DNA of 64,000 bases from Phycisphaeraceae bacterium (lineage in GTDB: Bacteria; Planctomycetota; Phycisphaerae; Phycisphaerales; UBA1924): positions 1-64,000 of the forward strand of contig JAJTHN010000020.1 in assembly GCA_021297895.1 (NCBI GenBank), read 5' to 3'. Of the stretch, positions 18,370 to 49,100 are shown piece by piece. The translations under genes and the position numbers were made by a program. The notes beneath the pieces were generated by a model. That model ran no database searches and had not been told where the DNA came from. It saw only the letters and a program-made list of their open reading frames with translations. The number at the start of each line of letters is the position of its first letter. The first letter of the stretch is position 1.

Positions 18370-18583
18370 ATGTTCCTCGCCCGGTCGCGCAGCGTCGTCG
18401 TGCGGTCGGGCGGATCGTTCGGATATGTGGGGACATGGTGCGTCGGGTGTCGCCGGTGTTTGCCGAGTTCGGGTTGCCCACCGCGTCGGGGCCGCTCTGA
18501 TCGGACAAGCGCCGGGGGTCGTCCATTGTCCGCGTGCGGCCGGCGTTCGTCCGGGCCGGCGGACCAAAATCGAAAGGTCTCGC

Positions 18584-19672
18584 ATGAACACTGTGGCTCG
18601 TTCGCATGCTCCGGCTGGCGCTCCGGTTGACGTACGTCCCGCGCATTTTCGCGGCTTCACGCTCATCGAACTGCTCGTGGTCATCGCGATCATCGCGCTG
18701 TTGGTCGCGATTCTGCTCCCAGCGCTGAGCAGCGCCCGCCGCGCGGCACGGCTGACGCTCTCGCTGGCCAACGTGCGTTCGCAGGTCTCCGCGACAGCGA
18801 ACTACCGCAACGACTACCGGGGTCAGTTGCCGTTTCCGCTCGCGGCTTGGGGCAACGGCGGTTTCCGTTTCGAGAAGGGCGGCAGGGGCTTTGCGAACAT
18901 CACGACCGCCGCGTGGTCGCACGCAGGCAAGAACAACGCGGCCCGTCAGGCCGCGTTCGACCCCGATTTCGACATCCCGGCGGGTAATCGAACGCTTTCG
19001 GCGTACATCTCGACCGAGGTCAACCTCAATCGCGAGTTCGTGACCGTCGCCGACCGGAACATCGAGATCCCGATCTGCCGATCCCCGGCCGATCGCGGCA
19101 GCCCGTTCCGCGATGCCTCGTCACCGACGAGCGTGCGGTTTCCTGAAGAGGACCGGACCATCAGCACGTACAACGCTGTCGGCACGTCGTACCTGAACAA
19201 TCAGTGGTGGTATCGCACGCTGGCCAATCGCACACCCTCGGTCGCGAATCCGTTTACCTCCGCCGAGTTGCCCGAGGCACCGTTCTCTGGTGGTGGCAGC
19301 ATGAGCGACGGGTCCACGCGGTTCCTGGGTCGTCTGGCACGCGAGGTCGCGGTGCGACGGATGGAGTCGGCGGGCTTCCAGGCGTCGCGCTTCGTTGTTG
19401 TGACGGACAAGACCGCGTTCCAGTACCAGTGGAACACGCCCGGCGCGAGCGACGGTACATCTGCGACCCCGTACAGCGACTGGCTGAGCGAGTTCGGCGA
19501 CCGCAACAAGTCCGCCATGGGCTTCCTCGATGGCTCGGTGCGGTACCAGGAGCTCTGGGCGCCCCGCGGGCAGTACCCCGCCGGATTCCTCGCCACCCAG
19601 CCGGTGACCTCCGACATCTATCTCCAAGTCCGCGGCGTCTACGCCCCCGACTACACGTTCCTGCTCCCGTGA
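18584..19672 (+). CDS. Type II secretion/pseudopilin-type protein (prepilin-like N-terminus)
   Basis: 362 residues. A 23-residue polar leader ends in Gly, followed by [24 protein letters not shown], the prepilin cleavage and methylation signal: a prepilin peptidase cuts after the Gly and the mature protein starts with methyl-Phe, with Glu at position 5. The long C-terminal domain contains ISTYNAVGTSYLNNQWWY and ends with a FLDGSVRY segment, recalling the DG motif of planctomycete DUF1559-like (H-X9-DG) proteins, which occur in tens of copies per genome. No pilus machinery is encoded nearby. The ATG is placed by the leader; AAAGG lies upstream with suitable spacing. Confidence 0.85.
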   Translation: MNTVARSHAPAGAPVDVRPAHFRGFTLIELLVVIAIIALLVAILLPALSSARRAARLTLSLANVRSQVSATANYRNDYRGQLPFPLAAWGNGGFRFEKGGRGFANITTAAWSHAGKNNAARQAAFDPDFDIPAGNRTLSAYISTEVNLNREFVTVADRNIEIPICRSPADRGSPFRDASSPTSVRFPEEDRTISTYNAVGTSYLNNQWWYRTLANRTPSVANPFTSAELPEAPFSGGGSMSDGSTRFLGRLAREVAVRRMESAGFQASRFVVVTDKTAFQYQWNTPGASDGTSATPYSDWLSEFGDRNKSAMGFLDGSVRYQELWAPRGQYPAGFLATQPVTSDIYLQVRGVYAPDYTFLLP

Positions 19673-20160: not shown

Positions 20161-21333
20161 ATGAGCAGTTCATCGTCTACAGAAACCGGGCAGTCGTCGG
20201 CGGTCGCCCTTGAGGAGCCCCCGACGGATCAGGCCGTTATCACGACGCGAGCGGTCGCCGAGCGCGAGGCGTTTCCGACGCAGAAGCCTCGCACGACGGC
20301 GGGGCTGACGGTGCTGATTCCGGCGTACAACGAGGCGAAGTTCATCGCCGACACGATCCGCTCGATCCGTGAGCAGACGCTGCAGCCCGATGAGATCATC
20401 GTGATCGACGACCGGTCTTCGGACGGCACGGGCGACATCGCGCGGAGCATGGGGGTGCGGGTGCTTCGGCCGGAGTCCAACTCGGGCTCGAAGGCCGGGG
20501 CGCTGAACTTCGGGCTCAAGTCCGTCGTGACGCCCTATACCCTGGCCATCGATGCGGACACCTCGCTTGCGCCCGACGCGATCGAGCGGCTGATGAAGGC
20601 GGCCAACACGGGCGATCTGGAGCAGGATGACCACATCGCCGGGGCGTGCGGGTACGTGATCCCGCGGCACGTCAACACGATCTGGGAGCGCGGCCGGTAC
20701 ATCGAGTACCTCTTCGCGTTCACGATCTACAAGCCGATTCAGGACTACTACGAGCGGCCGCTGATCGCCAGCGGGTGCTTCAGCGTTTATCGCACCGACG
20801 TTCTCCGCCGTCTGGGTGGCTGGCCGCACCGGACGCTGGCGGAGGACATGGACCTGACGTGGAACTGCTACGACGCCGGGTACCGGATCCGTTTCGTGCC
20901 GGAGGCGGTCTGCTACCCGATCGAGCCGCACAACTTCGACTTCCTGCGCAAGCAGTTGAGGCGTTGGAGCCGCGGCTTCTATCAGTGCGTTCGCGTTCAC
21001 TGGAAGACCGTGCTCAAGACGCCGTACCTGCGGCTGATCGTGGCGGTCGGCCTCTGGGACTCGACGGTGGCGACGCTGGCGTTCTTCGTGCTGCTGCCGC
21101 TGCTGTGCGTGCTGATCAGCCCGCTGTTCCTGCTCGGGTACTTCATCGATCTGCCCGCGGTGCTGGTGCCGGTGATGATCAAGGCGCACCAGCGCGGCGA
21201 GAAGCTCAAGGCTCTGTCGTCCATCCCCGCGTTCTACGTGATGCGGGTGGTCAACGGCGTGTTCGTGCTGTCGGCGTTCTGGCATGAGATCATCATGCGG
21301 AACCGCCTGAAGACCTTCGAGAAGGGCCACTGA
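20161..21333 (+). CDS. Membrane family-2 glycosyltransferase (processive, cellulose/PNAG synthase-like)
   Basis: 390 residues. After a disordered 45-residue N-terminus comes a GT-A fold: VLIPAYNEAKFI (51-62), UDP-binding Asp83-Asp84 (VIDDRSSDGTG), the DxD motif Asp131-Ala-Asp133, the catalytic-base region LAEDMDLTW (Glu228-Asp229), and Q-x-x-R-W as KQLRRWSRG (264-272). The last motif marks processive synthases. Hydrophobic helices follow (about 292-345 and 360-385). Such enzymes polymerise a sugar nucleotide and pass the chain through the membrane. The polymer cannot be named. A small membrane protein gene follows 104 bp downstream and is the probable partner. Confidence 0.9.
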   Translation: MSSSSSTETGQSSAVALEEPPTDQAVITTRAVAEREAFPTQKPRTTAGLTVLIPAYNEAKFIADTIRSIREQTLQPDEIIVIDDRSSDGTGDIARSMGVRVLRPESNSGSKAGALNFGLKSVVTPYTLAIDADTSLAPDAIERLMKAANTGDLEQDDHIAGACGYVIPRHVNTIWERGRYIEYLFAFTIYKPIQDYYERPLIASGCFSVYRTDVLRRLGGWPHRTLAEDMDLTWNCYDAGYRIRFVPEAVCYPIEPHNFDFLRKQLRRWSRGFYQCVRVHWKTVLKTPYLRLIVAVGLWDSTVATLAFFVLLPLLCVLISPLFLLGYFIDLPAVLVPVMIKAHQRGEKLKALSSIPAFYVMRVVNGVFVLSAFWHEIIMRNRLKTFEKGH

Positions 21334-21391
21334 TGATCGGACGCTTCGCCCGGGGTGTGCCCGCGGCGAATTGGGAATGAAGTCGAATCAA

Positions 21392-21431
21392 CACCTGTTT
21401 CTGAGTTGTTTCTCGCACCTGTTTCCGAGTT
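21392..21431 (+). repeat. Two 16-bp direct repeats immediately upstream of a membrane-protein gene
   Basis: CACCTGTTTCTGAGTT (21392-21407) and CACCTGTTTCCGAGTT (21416-21431) differ at one base and are spaced with a 24-bp period. They end six bases before the ATG at 21438, where a ribosome site would be expected but none is present. Confidence 0.7.
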
Positions 21432-21437
21432 TTCACC

Positions 21438-21815
21438 ATGGTCAACGGACTTCCTGGCGCTGGCATCGGCGGATTCTTCTACCTGATTCTCGCGCTGTAC
21501 ATGCCGATTCGTGAGGGCGTTCGCGCCGTTCGCGGGCGGAGCCGCCGCGAGCACTGGAACTTCATCATGCAGCAGTGGGCGATCATCGGGGCGATCCTGG
21601 TGGGGCTGTGGCTGCAGGGGTGGCTGCTTCGTGAGTTGTTCCTGAGCGCGCCGATGATGAGCATCACCGCGCTGGTCGACCCGACGGGCATGATGGCCAA
21701 GCCGGCATTCGACGTGGCGGGAGCCGCGGCGACGGCGGCTCTGGTGAGCCTTGCCGGCGTGGTGCTGATCGCCGAGGGCCTCAAGTTCCTGCTGGACTTT
21801 ACCAACAACGACTGA
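21438..21815 (+). CDS. Small integral membrane protein, probable glycosyltransferase partner
   Basis: 125 residues with three to four hydrophobic segments: IGGFFYLILALYMPI (10-24), WAIIGAILVGLWLQGWLLRELFL (about 47-69) and AAATAALVSLAGVVLIAEGLKFLL (97-120), with a basic loop VRAVRGRSRREH between the first two. No family recognised. Its position right after a processive GT2 synthase and before a terminator suggests an accessory subunit of the polysaccharide synthase (inference). Direct repeats lie in its leader. Confidence 0.75.
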   Translation: MVNGLPGAGIGGFFYLILALYMPIREGVRAVRGRSRREHWNFIMQQWAIIGAILVGLWLQGWLLRELFLSAPMMSITALVDPTGMMAKPAFDVAGAAATAALVSLAGVVLIAEGLKFLLDFTNND

Positions 21816-21854
21816 TCGTCCGCAGACACGGTCGAAACCGTCCGAATGAGCGTC

Positions 21855-21890
21855 AGACGCCCCCGGTCCGTCCGGGGGCGTCTGTTCATT
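21855..21890 (+). terminator. Terminator after the glycosyltransferase unit
   Basis: A perfect 12-bp stem AGACGCCCCCGG / CCGGGGGCGTCT around TCCGT, followed by the moderately T-rich GTTCATT. It closes the GT2 and membrane-protein unit 40 bp after the stop codon. Confidence 0.8.
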
Positions 21891-24157: not shown

Positions 24158-25081
24158 GTGAGAGAGAGAGACACCAAACATTCTGGACTGGCGTATGGCG
24201 CGGCGGGGATGTCGCTGGCGATCATGGTGATCATGGGCGGGTGTGCGTCCGCTGAGCCCGTGCGGCTGTCGAAGATCGATATCCCGACCGCTGACGGTGC
24301 GATTCGCGGATACGCCGCGACGGTGAATCTGCGCGATCCACGCGTGCGGCTGGTGGGCACTTCGGCGCTCGCGGCGGATTCTGGCAAGCCTGCCGGGGCC
24401 GAAGCGAGGCTCGTGCCGACGGATGAATGGGCGCGGTCGGTTGATGCGACGCTGGCGATCAATGCGAACTACTTTGGTCGTGTCGCGGGCGGCGCGGGCG
24501 CGTGGAAGGCGGGGGAGTATGTCGATGTGCTGGGCTTGAGCATCGCCGATGGCGTGGTTGTTTCGCCGGTGCGCGAATACGCCGGGCGTCCGGATCCGGC
24601 GCTCGCGGTGTTCGCCGATGGGCGTGCGGTGGCGGGGTATCTGCGGGCGTCGGATGTCGTCGGCGCGCAGGTCGGTGTGGCGAGCATCGGGCCGAGCGAT
24701 ACCGACCCGGCTCGCGGGACGATGCTGGTCGACGACGCGGTGAACCTCGGCGGAACGGCGCGTGTCGAACCTTCGGCGCGGCATCCGCGCACGGCGGTCG
24801 GCGTGAGCCGGGATGGATCGATGCTGATCATCGTCGCGATCGATGGGAGATCGCCCGGGCACAGCATCGGCGCGACGCTGAACGAGACCGGCGATATTCT
24901 CATCGGGCTGGGGGCCTTCGACGCGATCAACTTGGATGGTGGGGGGTCGACTTCATTCGTCTATGTTCCGACGGATGGCCCGTCGGTGCAGAACCGGCCG
25001 AGCGACGGTGCGTTCCGGCCGGTTGCCAATCACCTGGGTGTGCGGATCACGCCGCGGGCCCAGCGTTCCCCTTCGTCGTAG
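24158..25081 (+). CDS. Phosphodiester glycosidase (NAGPA-domain) lipoprotein
   Basis: 307 residues. With the GTG start the protein has a charged n-region (RERDTKH), a hydrophobic core and the lipobox-like IMGGC, so it is a predicted lipoprotein. The rest matches the NAGPA fold found in the uncovering enzyme and in bacterial exopolysaccharide-linked proteins: TLAINANYFG, then RTAVGVSRDGSMLIIVAIDGR, and the hallmark AINLDGGGSTSFV near the C-terminus, where the Asp and glycines bind the substrate phosphodiester. Such enzymes cleave sugar-phosphodiester bonds (for example GlcNAc-1-phosphodiester caps). The substrate is unknown. Confidence 0.88.
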   Translation: MRERDTKHSGLAYGAAGMSLAIMVIMGGCASAEPVRLSKIDIPTADGAIRGYAATVNLRDPRVRLVGTSALAADSGKPAGAEARLVPTDEWARSVDATLAINANYFGRVAGGAGAWKAGEYVDVLGLSIADGVVVSPVREYAGRPDPALAVFADGRAVAGYLRASDVVGAQVGVASIGPSDTDPARGTMLVDDAVNLGGTARVEPSARHPRTAVGVSRDGSMLIIVAIDGRSPGHSIGATLNETGDILIGLGAFDAINLDGGGSTSFVYVPTDGPSVQNRPSDGAFRPVANHLGVRITPRAQRSPSS

Positions 25082-25158: not shown

Positions 25159-26388
25159 ATGCGTATCGCCGTTTGCAGCCTCATCGTTCTCGCGGGCCTG
25201 GCCACTGCCGCCAACGCCCAGACCCTGACCCCCAAGACGTCGTTCGGCGTCAACGGCTGGCGCGCTCCGGGCGTCGCTCTGACCGGCGATGCTCCCGGCG
25301 CGGTCTCGGGCAGCACCTACCTGGCGCTCGGCACGGGCAACAACGAGCGTGGCCTGGCGTACAACCCCGTCACGGACAACCTCATCCTGGTGACGCGTAA
25401 CGGCGCGATCAACGCCACGGCGTCTCCGTTCCGCATCCTCAACGGCACCACGGGCGTTGACTCCGGCGGTCTGCAGTTCGACAGCAACCTGTTCAACACC
25501 GGCACGTTTCAGTACAACCAGGTCGGCATCAGCGATAGCGGCGAGATCTACATCGCCAACATGAGCGCCAACATCCGCTCGGCGACCTCGCCGTTCCGCG
25601 TGTACAAGTTCGCCAACGAGTCGTCGGCCCCCGCGCTGCACTACTCCCAGCCCACGACGGGCTGGAGCTCGACCGGTGGCACCGTCCGCCTCGGCGACTC
25701 GTTCGACGTCATCGGTTCCGGCGCCAACACCCGCATTCTCGCGGGCTTCAACGGCGTTCAGGGCTACCTCGCCATCAACGGCAGCACTTCGCCCACCGGC
25801 CAGATCTACTCCTCGACCACTGCTCCGCTGCCCCCGGCTGGCTCGCTCCCGATCAGCGGCGCTGCCGCTGGCCAGTATCGCCTTGGTCTGACCTTCGGCG
25901 CGACGGCCAATGACGTCCTGGCCAAGGTTGCCCAGACCAACGGCACGCTGACCCGCTCGACCATCGGCCCGTCCGGCGCGACCACCCTGGCCAACGGCGG
26001 AACTCTGACCGCTGGCGGCGAGTCGCCCATGGACTTCGCCGTCATCGGCGGCGTCCCCTATCTGGCCACGGTCGATGCGAACAACTCGCGCGTGTACATG
26101 TACGACATGACCAACCCCGCCGCGCCGGTGAGCCTGTTCACCTTCGGCGTGCGCAACCCCGGCATCGTCCCGGTCGACCCGCTGACCGGCAATACGGTTG
26201 CCAACAGCAACGCGACCGGCTCGGTTAAGTTCGGCCGCATTTCGAGCAACGGCGGCATCTTCACCGCCGACCTCTACGTCCTGAACTCCAACAACGGCAT
26301 CCAGGCCTTCACCTTCTCCATCCCGACGCCGGGCGCTGCTGCACTCCTCGGATTGGGGGGTCTTGCGGCCTTCCGTCGCCGTCGGTAA
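25159..26388 (+). CDS. Secreted PEP-CTERM-type protein
   Basis: 409 residues. A Sec signal peptide (MRIAVCSLIVLAGLATAANA, then Q) leads a long Thr/Ser/Asn/Gly-rich beta-propeller-like mature part with repeats such as RGLAYNPVTDNLILVTR, QVGISDSGEIYIAN and PMDFAVIGGVPYLATVDANNSRVYMYD. The C-terminus is IPTPGAAALLGLGGLAAFRRRR: a Pro-rich sorting motif, one hydrophobic helix and an Arg cluster. This is the PEP-CTERM three-part signal in its Phycisphaerae variant, read by an exosortase/archaeosortase-like system encoded elsewhere. Predicted to be an extracellular or surface-anchored protein; no catalytic motif is evident. Confidence 0.85.
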   Translation: MRIAVCSLIVLAGLATAANAQTLTPKTSFGVNGWRAPGVALTGDAPGAVSGSTYLALGTGNNERGLAYNPVTDNLILVTRNGAINATASPFRILNGTTGVDSGGLQFDSNLFNTGTFQYNQVGISDSGEIYIANMSANIRSATSPFRVYKFANESSAPALHYSQPTTGWSSTGGTVRLGDSFDVIGSGANTRILAGFNGVQGYLAINGSTSPTGQIYSSTTAPLPPAGSLPISGAAAGQYRLGLTFGATANDVLAKVAQTNGTLTRSTIGPSGATTLANGGTLTAGGESPMDFAVIGGVPYLATVDANNSRVYMYDMTNPAAPVSLFTFGVRNPGIVPVDPLTGNTVANSNATGSVKFGRISSNGGIFTADLYVLNSNNGIQAFTFSIPTPGAAALLGLGGLAAFRRRR

Positions 26389-46124: not shown

Positions 46125-49100
46125 ATGTCCACTCGTGGTGTGTTCTCGGCCTTTGTCCTTTCCTGGGCCGGTGTCTCGGGTGGCTGCCTTGCGCAGCCCG
46201 TTCCCGCTCCGGTCACGCCGCTTCCCGCGGCTCCTGCCGCGACCGTTGCTCCGGGACAGGTTGGCATGGTCGCGTTTCCTTCGCTCAGCCCTGATGGCTC
46301 ACTGATGGTGTTCAGTTGGCTGGGTGACTTGTGGGCCGTCAGTTCGCAGGGCGGCCCGGCGTCGCGGCTGACAAGCCATCCGGCCGAGGAGCGCCGGAGC
46401 GCGTTCTCGCCCGATGGCTCGCTGCTGGCCTTCGAGAGCGATCGCGAGGGCTCGCGGAACTTGTACATCGTACCGATCACCTCCGCCGGACCGAACGGTC
46501 CCGTTCAGGCCGGTCGGGTACGACGGGTCACGGCACTTGACCGCGCCCAGACACTTACGTCGTGGACGCCAGACGGCTCGGCGCTGCTCTTCTCAGGCTC
46601 CATCGAAGCGACCGTTTTCCGCGGCACGCAGATGTTCCGCGTCCCGGTGCTGACGCAGGAGTTGGCGAACGACGATCCCGCAACGATCGTCGGCGGGCCG
46701 ATCGAGCGGCTCACGCCAGCTTTCGGCACGCAGCCGCGACTGTCGGCCGACGGCTCGACGCTGTACTTCGCCCGTCGCCGCCCGGAGCCCGCCCGTCCGC
46801 GCTATTCGGGCAGCGGCGCGAGCGACCTGGTCGCGATGACGATGAGCACGGGGGAGTTCACGACGCTCACCAGCGATGCTCGCAGCGATGCCGAGCCGTT
46901 CCCGCTGCCGGATGGGTCGGTGCTGTTCATCTCAAGCCGCAGCGGCACGCACAACCTCATGCGACTTCCAGCCGGTGCTCGCGATGATCGTGCCGCGCGG
47001 GCGCTGACGAACTTTCAGCCCGGCGACAAGGCCACGATCGCCCACGGGGTACGCGACCTCGCGGTCAACGCGGCGGGGACCGTCGCGGTCTTCAGCGTGT
47101 TCGACACCGTGTACCGCATGGACCTCACGCGCGCCGATACGTCGCCGACGCCGATGTCCGTCGCGTCAAGCCTTGATGCGTCGGACCTTGAACTTGCGAG
47201 GCTGAACATCTCGCGTGAAGTGACCGAGCAGGCGATCAGCCCCGACGGCAAGACGCTCGCGGTCATCGCTCGTGGCGAGGTGTTTATCCGCTCGACGGAT
47301 GAGGGCCGCCCGACCCGACGCGTGACGAACTTCGATGGAAAGGCGCGTGCGCGGGACTTGGCGTGGAGCCCGGACAATCGCGTGCTGTTCTTCACGAGCG
47401 ACCAGACCGGCTCTTCGATGCTGTACTACGCAACGGTCGCGCTGAGCCGCGGCGATATCCGTCCGGACGCCGCAACCGGCGGCACCGGCGAGAAGACCGA
47501 CAAGCCCGAGGAGCCCGAGGCCGGAAAGGCCGCGGCACCCGCGGCCAAGACTGACGAGTATCTCGACGCCCTCGCGTCCCAAGAGCTGGCGGCTCAGCCC
47601 CCGTCGGATCCCGCGGCTGCCACCGGCGGATCGCCGGCCCCGGCGAGCGATGCCGCGGCCCGTCCGCGACGACCGGCACGCCCGAAGGTCGATCACGCCA
47701 AGAGGTGGAGCGAGTCGATCCGCTTTGAGGTCAAGCCGCTCGACCTCTCGGCGGTGCCCGCGGGCAAGAACGACGGCGTGCTGGGGCCGGAGTGGTCCGC
47801 ACCGATCCCTTCGCCCGACGGCAAGCAGTTGCTGCTCACGCGAGGGCTCGGTGATGTGGTGCTCTTTGACCTGACCAAGCGTTCGGGCAGAGTGATTATC
47901 GAGGGATGGAACGCGCCGAGCCTGCAGTGGGCGAGCGATTCGCGCCACGTGATCCTCGCTCGGGAGGATCTTGACTTCAACAGCGACATCTGGCTCGTCG
48001 ACACGCAGGCCGAGGACGCGATGAAGTCCGCGACGAACCTCACGCGACATCCGGACCCGGATCTGGCACCGCAGCTCAGCGCCGACGGAAAGGTGCTGTA
48101 CTTCCTCAGCGAGCGATTGGGCGGCGGCGAGCGGCGCGAACTTCAGGTCTACTGCGTGTTTCTCGACAAGTCGCTGGAGGGTCTGCGGCCTTTCGAACTC
48201 GATGAGTACTTCAAGAAGGCCGCGGAGAACGCCCGCAAGCGCAAGCCGATCGAGCCGGTGATGTGGGACCAGCCCGCATCGCCCTCCGACGGCGAAGCGA
48301 GCGCCAAGGTTGAGGCCGCGGGCCAGAAGGAGGAGGCCGTCGTCGCCGCGGCGAAGCCCGACGCGCAACCGGACGCCAAGCCAGAAAGCAAGCCAGACAC
48401 CAAGCCCGAATCCAAGCCAGAAACCAAAGCGGACGCGCGAAAGGCCGAGCCGCTGAAGTTCGACGCGAGCGATGCCTGGCAGCGGGTCCGACGCATCACC
48501 ACCGGTGGCGGATCCAAGGGCTCGCTCTCGATCACCCCGGGCGGCGATCGGATCATCACCACCGGCGACGCCGATGGCGGCACCGAGCGAGCGCTCCTGA
48601 ACTTCTCGTTCAAGGGAGATGATCGGCGGGTCGTCCAGGTCGGCGCGGTCTCGGATGTTCGCATGTCGCTCACCGGCGATCGAGTTTCCTTCGTCCGCCA
48701 GGGCTCGGTCAGCGCCGCGTCGCTCGGTGCTCCGAAGGTCGATGCGCTGGCGATCGAGGCAAACATCGTCGTCCGTCTGGCCGACCAGCAGTCGCACAAG
48801 TTCCGCGAGGCGGCCCGCATCCTCGGCAACGGCTTCTACCACCCGACGCTCAAGGGCCTGAACTGGCCCGCGCTGGTTGAGCGGTACGACATCCTCGCCC
48901 GACGCACACGAACGAGCGATGAGTTCGACCGCGTGGTGAATATGCTCTTCGGAGAACTCGACGGATCGCACACGGGCATCAATTCCTCGGGCGGCTTCTC
49001 GGCACCGTCTCCCGCGACGGGGTATCTGGGCATCGACTTCGAAGCCGTGCCCGGCGGCTACCGGGTTACGCGCGTTCTGCCGCAAGGCCCCGGCGATCGG

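Follow-up and report, generated by a model that had tools for sequence, protein, structure and literature searches.

A strictly linked GT2 glycosyltransferase and small membrane protein, predicted to form a two-subunit synthase, and the changeable spacer between their genes

A GT2 synthase gene and its membrane partner

Five synthase-dependent exopolysaccharides are named in the excerpted text of PMC7112194, in which pgaD and icaD are given as non-homologous and both as required, and in which a general exporter scheme for such polymers is laid out. PgaD is described in the available part of PMC8461298 as an integral membrane partner needed for PgaC activity, with its way of acting left unresolved there. 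A precedent of another kind concerns leaders: according to an extract of PMC4679880, TAACTGA heptamers that lie before start codons in Beggiatoaceae, rarely together with a Shine-Dalgarno sequence, are proposed to be translational control sites. Here, we compare a planctomycete locus with these systems. It lies in the window, by which we mean the whole 64,000-nucleotide stretch of DNA that was analysed, and consists of a gene for a GT2 synthase (GT) followed on the same strand by a gene for a small membrane protein (SM).

The GT gene (20161..21333, + strand) encodes 390 aa, with a predicted cytosolic GT-A domain and then membrane helices. Its product matched PF00535 at 6.5e-30 (104.7 bits, against a cut-off of 23.3) and related GT2 models as well. 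D83, D84, D131, D133, E228, D229, Q265, R268, and W269 were the conserved positions in both a 14-row and a 71-row alignment. They belong to an Asp-Asp pair, DD83-84 (20407..20412), with a conservation of at least 98.5% over 71 sequences, to a DxD motif, D131-A-D133 (20551..20559), to an E228-D229 motif (20842..20847), and to a QxxRW motif, Q265-LRR-W269 or QLRRW (20953..20967), all on the + strand. The E-D and QxxRW motifs were likewise at least 98.5% conserved over the 71 rows. We take the Asp-Asp pair to be the nucleotide-sugar site, with the role that it has in GT2 enzymes, and E228-D229 to be the catalytic-base motif; the roles of the DxD and QxxRW motifs are also those that we assume from GT2 enzymes. 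A first-pass annotation had called this gene a QxxRW synthase, and the open reading frame, the GT2 Pfam match, and the motif were all confirmed. By its sequence, the window GT is a GT2 glycosyltransferase carrying the QxxRW signature, for which processive polymer synthesis is a prediction. By hydropathy, it has no N-terminal membrane helix. An extension before the catalytic domain with a hydropathy-predicted helix was found in 0 of 81 GT, and the first 200 residues of the catalytic part were helix-free in 65 of 71 sequences, the other six having one helix. The total per GT was mostly two or three helices (71 sequences).

The SM gene (21438..21815, + strand) encodes 125 aa. The most conserved part of the protein is a signature at residues 4-15, GLPGAGIGGFFY (21447..21482, + strand), which reads GLPGTGIGGxFY in most relatives. 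For the window SM, Pfam yielded nothing above cut-off (a single match at E 0.99) and NCBIfam nothing at all, and neither collection offered a family even at E up to 0.1, in agreement with its earlier description as a 125-residue membrane protein of no known family. A known family was also sought with 71 SM sequences and rejected, the matches being scattered, with at most four members per Pfam family and at most two per NCBIfam family among the families listed. PgaD was absent among the family names listed for the other 70 SM (best 25 of 37 and best 25 of 31). When PDB sequences were searched with the SM profile, nothing was returned once, and otherwise six weak, unrelated helical proteins. In the 71 sequences, loop 1 (mean net charge 3.4) and the C-tail (3.3) were positive and the N-tail and loop 2 neutral, which suggests that the N-terminus of SM lies outside and its C-terminus inside.

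For a structural view, the GT-SM pair of a relative (L091) was modelled as one chain by an artificial read-through of the single stop, with 13 sequences. The model reached a pLDDT of 80.5 and a pTM of 0.80; in it, SM forms three helices and the GT part has two long membrane helices. The top VIA match of the GT model was PcManGT (6yv7; Z 24.7, rmsd 3.0, 289 residues). Two further enzymes, each at Z 23.9, tied with it within 1 Z: Chlorella virus hyaluronan synthase, aligned over 326 residues (its 76-452) at an rmsd of 2.9, and E. coli BcsA, aligned over 319 residues (its 267-619) at an rmsd of 3.4. The aligned ranges suggest that GT corresponds to the catalytic domain of the latter two enzymes plus the helices just after it, and lacks their N-terminal and last helices; SM may help to complete the chain path through the membrane. 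In sequence and predicted fold, activity aside, the window locus thus comprises a putative inner-membrane GT2 synthase and a further predicted membrane subunit.

Pairing and distribution of GT and SM

We looked at how often the two genes occur together. GT relatives (E up to 1e-60) were present in 13 of 120 family genomes, and in all 13 SM lay directly downstream on the same strand, at a gap of 3-197 nt. The SM profile was positive in 23 of 400 genomes of the order, and the GT profile, run on the same draw, was positive in the identical 23; a phylum-wide draw of 392 gave, for the SM profile, the window's own genome and four others. Fourteen further SM genomes were read, and GT was upstream in 14 of 14, with SM split in two pieces in one of them (G749). 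Altogether, GT was directly upstream of SM in 27 of the 27 genomes found by the SM profile or the GT search, which refutes the possibility that the small protein occurs mostly without a GT2 enzyme.

A pattern scan of GTDB species genomes yielded 140 GT relatives, the best 80 of which, from many phyla, were fetched. One locus (L094) is cut by a contig end and was excluded from the downstream count; SM was found downstream of GT in 79 of the 79 readable loci. It was recognised by a strict motif in 62 and by eye in 17, two of the latter (L120 and L131) showing a weak resemblance. A contig end cuts SM in L061, and in L085 and L090 the SM frame downstream of GT is broken by an apparent frameshift or stop, through error or decay. 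The GT tree, of 74 rows, bears 14 phylum labels, with 5 rows unlabelled; the labels are those of submitters' titles, mostly of metagenome bins, so single ones may be wrong. Two named Nocardioides strains (L089 and L137) carry the pair, which could therefore be tested in culture. Plasmid copies appeared in four records, at 36-46% identity and with a coverage below 80% in each.

Pairwise divergences of GT and SM were correlated (r 0.72 over 71 pairs, the best of 2000 permutations giving 0.14), shared ancestry contributing to this value. GT and SM are a real, strictly linked pair, and since they travel together across many bacteria, SM is most probably a component that the enzyme needs. The synthase pair proposed in the first-pass annotation is thus strongly supported by the 27 genomes and the 79 loci; an exopolysaccharide product would be suggested by the fold, the motifs, and a protein fusion treated below.

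A larger conserved gene cluster was considered and rejected: when 761 ORFs from 80 loci were clustered, GT was found in 80 loci, SM in 45, and the next family in 11. Pfam searches with 149 proteins of the neighbourhood, drawn from 30 of the 80 loci, gave scattered functions, with no polysaccharide-modification family prominent among the best 25 of 190 families; the commonest families there were MFS and TPR, with 4 of the 149 proteins each. In the window, a protein with an N-terminal methylation (pilin-like) motif (PF07963) is encoded at 18425-19672, just upstream of GT, and a phosphodiester glycosidase domain protein (PF09992) at 24158-25081, a few genes downstream of the unit. The ORF at 25159-26388 ends in a hydrophobic stretch and RRRR, a tail that, as we assume, resembles a PEP-CTERM sorting tail.

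After the unit, a hairpin of 13 bp (11 of them G-C, loop of 5) is found at 21854..21884 on the + strand. Its T tail is weak, TTCATTTG, and a scan of 4 kb counted 6 such sites where 2.2 were expected. The unit had been said to end in its own terminator; the hairpin is there, and with this tail an intrinsic terminator is possible.

The spacer between GT and SM

In the window, GT and SM are separated by 104 nt (21334..21437, + strand) with no Shine-Dalgarno core before SM. This spacer holds a direct repeat, CACCTGTTTC[T/C]GAGTT, with one copy at 21392..21407 and the other at 21416..21431 on the + strand. The copies are 15/16 identical, and the second ends six bases before the SM ATG at 21438, as the earlier description of two near-identical 16-bp repeats had it. 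Their spacing is indeed 24 bp, the "24-bp period" of that description being drawn from two copies only. Among 1000 dinucleotide-shuffled versions of the spacer, none had a pair better than 13/16, which places the observed 15/16 beyond chance. Pairs of at least 15/16 at a spacing of 16-40 bp occurred in two places in the 64-kb window, the spacer and 48376; the region 48365-48427 is a 12/24-bp tandem repeat of CCAAGCCAGAAA units. With up to 3 mismatches, the window's own genome contained 10 matches to the repeat, including the two spacer copies, versus 11 for a reversed-pattern control, so the repeat is not a genome-wide element. The 16-mer was also absent from 12 of 12 other spacers of the family genomes, in which no conserved spacer sequence was seen. 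A conserved regulatory repeat is ruled out by these two results, and conservation of the repeats, when checked, failed.

The spacer is inessential to the pair, because in most pairs (56 of 74) only 0-5 nt separate the GT stop from the SM start. AGGG, AGGA, GGAG, or GAGG was found before SM in 53 of the 56 tight pairs, within the GT tail codons, and in 9 of 17 spaced pairs. The tail of GT ends in Lys-Gly-His (21322..21330, + strand, in the window) in 80 of the 80 GT with a readable end, and at tightly spaced loci these codons sit at the expected Shine-Dalgarno position for SM. In the GT tree, the window sits in a supported clade of 16 rows, 15 of which have spacers of at least 50 nt, versus 2 of the 58 others (Omnitrophota L084 and L087). 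Strong 7-8-bp tandem arrays, all different, were present in 6 of these 17 spacers (L058, L059, L068, L072, L073, and L107). Since the clade spacers gather unrelated short tandem repeats, something about this leader is unusual.

What the repeats do, if anything, was weighed in two ways. They may be a contingency or control element, in which repeat number or the binding of a regulator would tune SM translation and switch the synthase. Such a role is consistent with the density of the arrays, six in the 2,134 nt of the 17 spacers against a single one in the roughly 237 kb that make up the rest of those sequences and 0 in five further control stretches totalling 98.5 kb, with the differing arrays of the sister species L072, L073, and L107, and with the window leader being devoid of a Shine-Dalgarno core; the Beggiatoaceae heptamers, as far as the extract of PMC4679880 goes, are a precedent. 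However, the window 16-mer is missing from the 12 other spacers, 9 of the 15 clade spacers have no strong array, among them that of the window with its 24-bp duplication only, and tight-gap loci show a background of 9 arrays in 576 kb. Moreover, the unit CAGCACT, present in three of 18 genomes, is dispersed in all three. Another heptamer unit was confined to its spacer, and the reversed control pattern matched 5 times in G026 and 29 times in G073, revealing further heptamer arrays in these two genomes. The array tests were also made after the pattern had been seen, on related spacers that are not independent. We hold a control element to be distinctly unlikely. The spacer may instead be merely permissive, a neutral site where short repeats drift and where the 24-bp duplication of the window came from one slip. 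We lean slightly towards this permissive spacer, for which speak the lack of a conserved spacer sequence, the turnover of unit sequences between close relatives, the tight spacing of most pairs, and the dispersal of heptamer arrays in some of these genomes; yet a repeat score of at least 14 was reached in 6 of 17 spacers versus 0 of 54 control stretches taken from other ORF-free parts of the same loci. On the sequences compared, the spacer repeat changes fast, is specific to its lineage, and is not conserved.

Exporter-like proteins, proposed mode of action, and comparison with known synthases

Proteins with TPR repeats or a predicted beta-barrel are fused to the pair or lie next to it at some loci of Gemmatimonadota, HR33, and KSB1. 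At six Gemmatimonadota loci (L098, L124, L128, L133, L135, and L136), the SM reading frame runs on into a TPR protein; the fused protein is 611-664 aa long in L124, L128, L133, and L135, and reaches the contig end in L098 and L136. L105 holds an apparently similar fusion together with unread bases. Pfam detected TPR repeats in 4 of 4 fusions tested, and the SM part is separated from the TPR domain by a hydrophobic stretch. The fusion of L128 was modelled at a pLDDT of 64 and a pTM of 0.46, the SM part being below pLDDT 50; TPR helices are followed by about 16 beta strands, the C-terminal part being modelled as a beta-barrel. Its top Foldseek match was BcsC at E 1.2e-7, with TM-scores of 0.32/0.35 and an rmsd of 12.3; a PelBC chain came at rank 25, and most other rows were TPR or TPR-like helical proteins. 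A second look with VIA gave 50 rows, all covering the TPR part only. Unfused homologues of the barrel part were found by profile directly after SM in L097, L099, and L125, and a separate TPR protein, by the TPR profile, after SM in L118. The barrel profile had no match among PDB sequences. In the 15 GT-bearing planctomycete genomes, the window's included, a search made without a positive control found no member of the barrel family.

We consider it probable that GT and SM are the two parts of a polysaccharide synthase of the inner membrane, one that works in the manner of PgaC/PgaD or IcaA/IcaD although its partner is not homologous to theirs. Computation supports this by the strict linkage, the correlated divergence, the predicted fold of GT, and the SM-TPR fusion. 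The cytosolic GT-A domain of GT would polymerise a nucleotide sugar. Of the membrane helices, GT would have only those that align with the first post-catalytic ones of BcsA and hyaluronan synthase, the N-terminal helices of these enzymes being absent, and SM would add about three helices, N outside and C inside. SM would be needed for assembly, activity, or chain passage, much as PgaC depends on PgaD and IcaA on IcaD. Transport of the polymer across the outer membrane would fall, in some other phyla, to the adjoining or fused TPR/beta-barrel protein, no counterpart of which was found in the window's genome. Processivity and polymer secretion are expected of the pair, and the presumed exopolysaccharide product is suggested by the fold, the motifs, and the exporter-like fusion, the last of these from another phylum and not from this organism.

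The same fold also allows GT to be a non-processive, lipid-linked sugar transferase of the PcManGT/GtrB type, with SM as its flippase or anchor, the products being decorated lipids or glycans. PcManGT is reportedly, from the title of its literature, an N-glycan enzyme, and as it is the nearest fold by Z, a non-polymerising role is possible. SM is also about as long as GtrA-type flippases. The low TM-scores of the BcsC match make the synthase reading slightly weaker and the glycolipid reading slightly stronger. Nevertheless, the QxxRW and E-D motifs are kept throughout the 71 rows, hyaluronan synthase and BcsA lie within 1 Z of PcManGT, SM is fused to or adjoins an exporter-like TPR/barrel protein, and, as the window SM had no Pfam match at E up to 0.1, we rejected a GtrA/GtrB flipping pair. 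A lipid-linked transferase is therefore unlikely in our view. A two-part synthase would be a new handle on PgaD/IcaD-type action, having an independent partner family, a strict one-to-one link to the enzyme, a short signature, and a wide diversity, and the pair suggests that planctomycetes and other phyla that have seen little study make an undescribed surface polymer.

Compared with what is described, GT-SM resembles the TAACTGA repeats of Beggiatoaceae in having short direct repeats just before a start, often without a Shine-Dalgarno sequence; in the extract of PMC4679880, however, those are one genome-wide sequence, whereas the repeats here are in one spacer and differ between genomes. With IcaA/IcaD, the PIA synthase of Staphylococcus, it shares a GT2 enzyme and a small membrane partner, which form one operon in the excerpt of PMC7112194; it differs in that no family search ties SM to IcaD and in being found in many phyla. 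As for BcsA/BcsB/BcsC, the alignment of GT to BcsA takes in the catalytic domain and the helices that follow it, and the Gemmatimonadota fusion has BcsC as its best, low-scoring Foldseek match. GT has fewer membrane helices than BcsA, however, and membership in the BcsA family was rejected on a CelA equivalog score of 35.8 bits (cut-off 699.1) and on the absence of PilZ among its seven Pfam matches. PcManGT, an archaeal enzyme and minimal cellulose-synthase-like mannosyltransferase, is the solved structure of highest Z and is similar in size to GT; we know of no SM-like partner for it.

The likeness is closest to PgaC/PgaD, the PNAG synthase of Gram-negative bacteria, which works with the TPR/beta-barrel exporter PgaA. 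Both have a GT2 synthase and a small membrane partner, and PgaC/IcaA (TIGR03937) is the best NCBIfam model for GT, at 120.5 bits. This score is below the equivalog cut-off of 422.3, the window SM matches no PgaD model, and GT is missing the N-terminal membrane helices, so that membership among PNAG synthases was rejected on the first two counts. GT-SM is a real, strictly linked synthase module; no description of it was found in the titles and abstract starts among the matches listed from the open-access literature, where the SM signature string had no match either. It may tentatively be seen, with somewhat less than even confidence, as an undescribed two-subunit class in which a truncated BcsA-like enzyme and a three-helix subunit share the chain path, a third solution in which the partner is homologous to neither PgaD nor IcaD, spread thinly across many phyla, with a BcsC-like exporter in some of them and a repeat-gaining leader in one planctomycete clade. 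By analogy, we class GT-SM as a system that would work like PgaC/PgaD and is not a member of that family.
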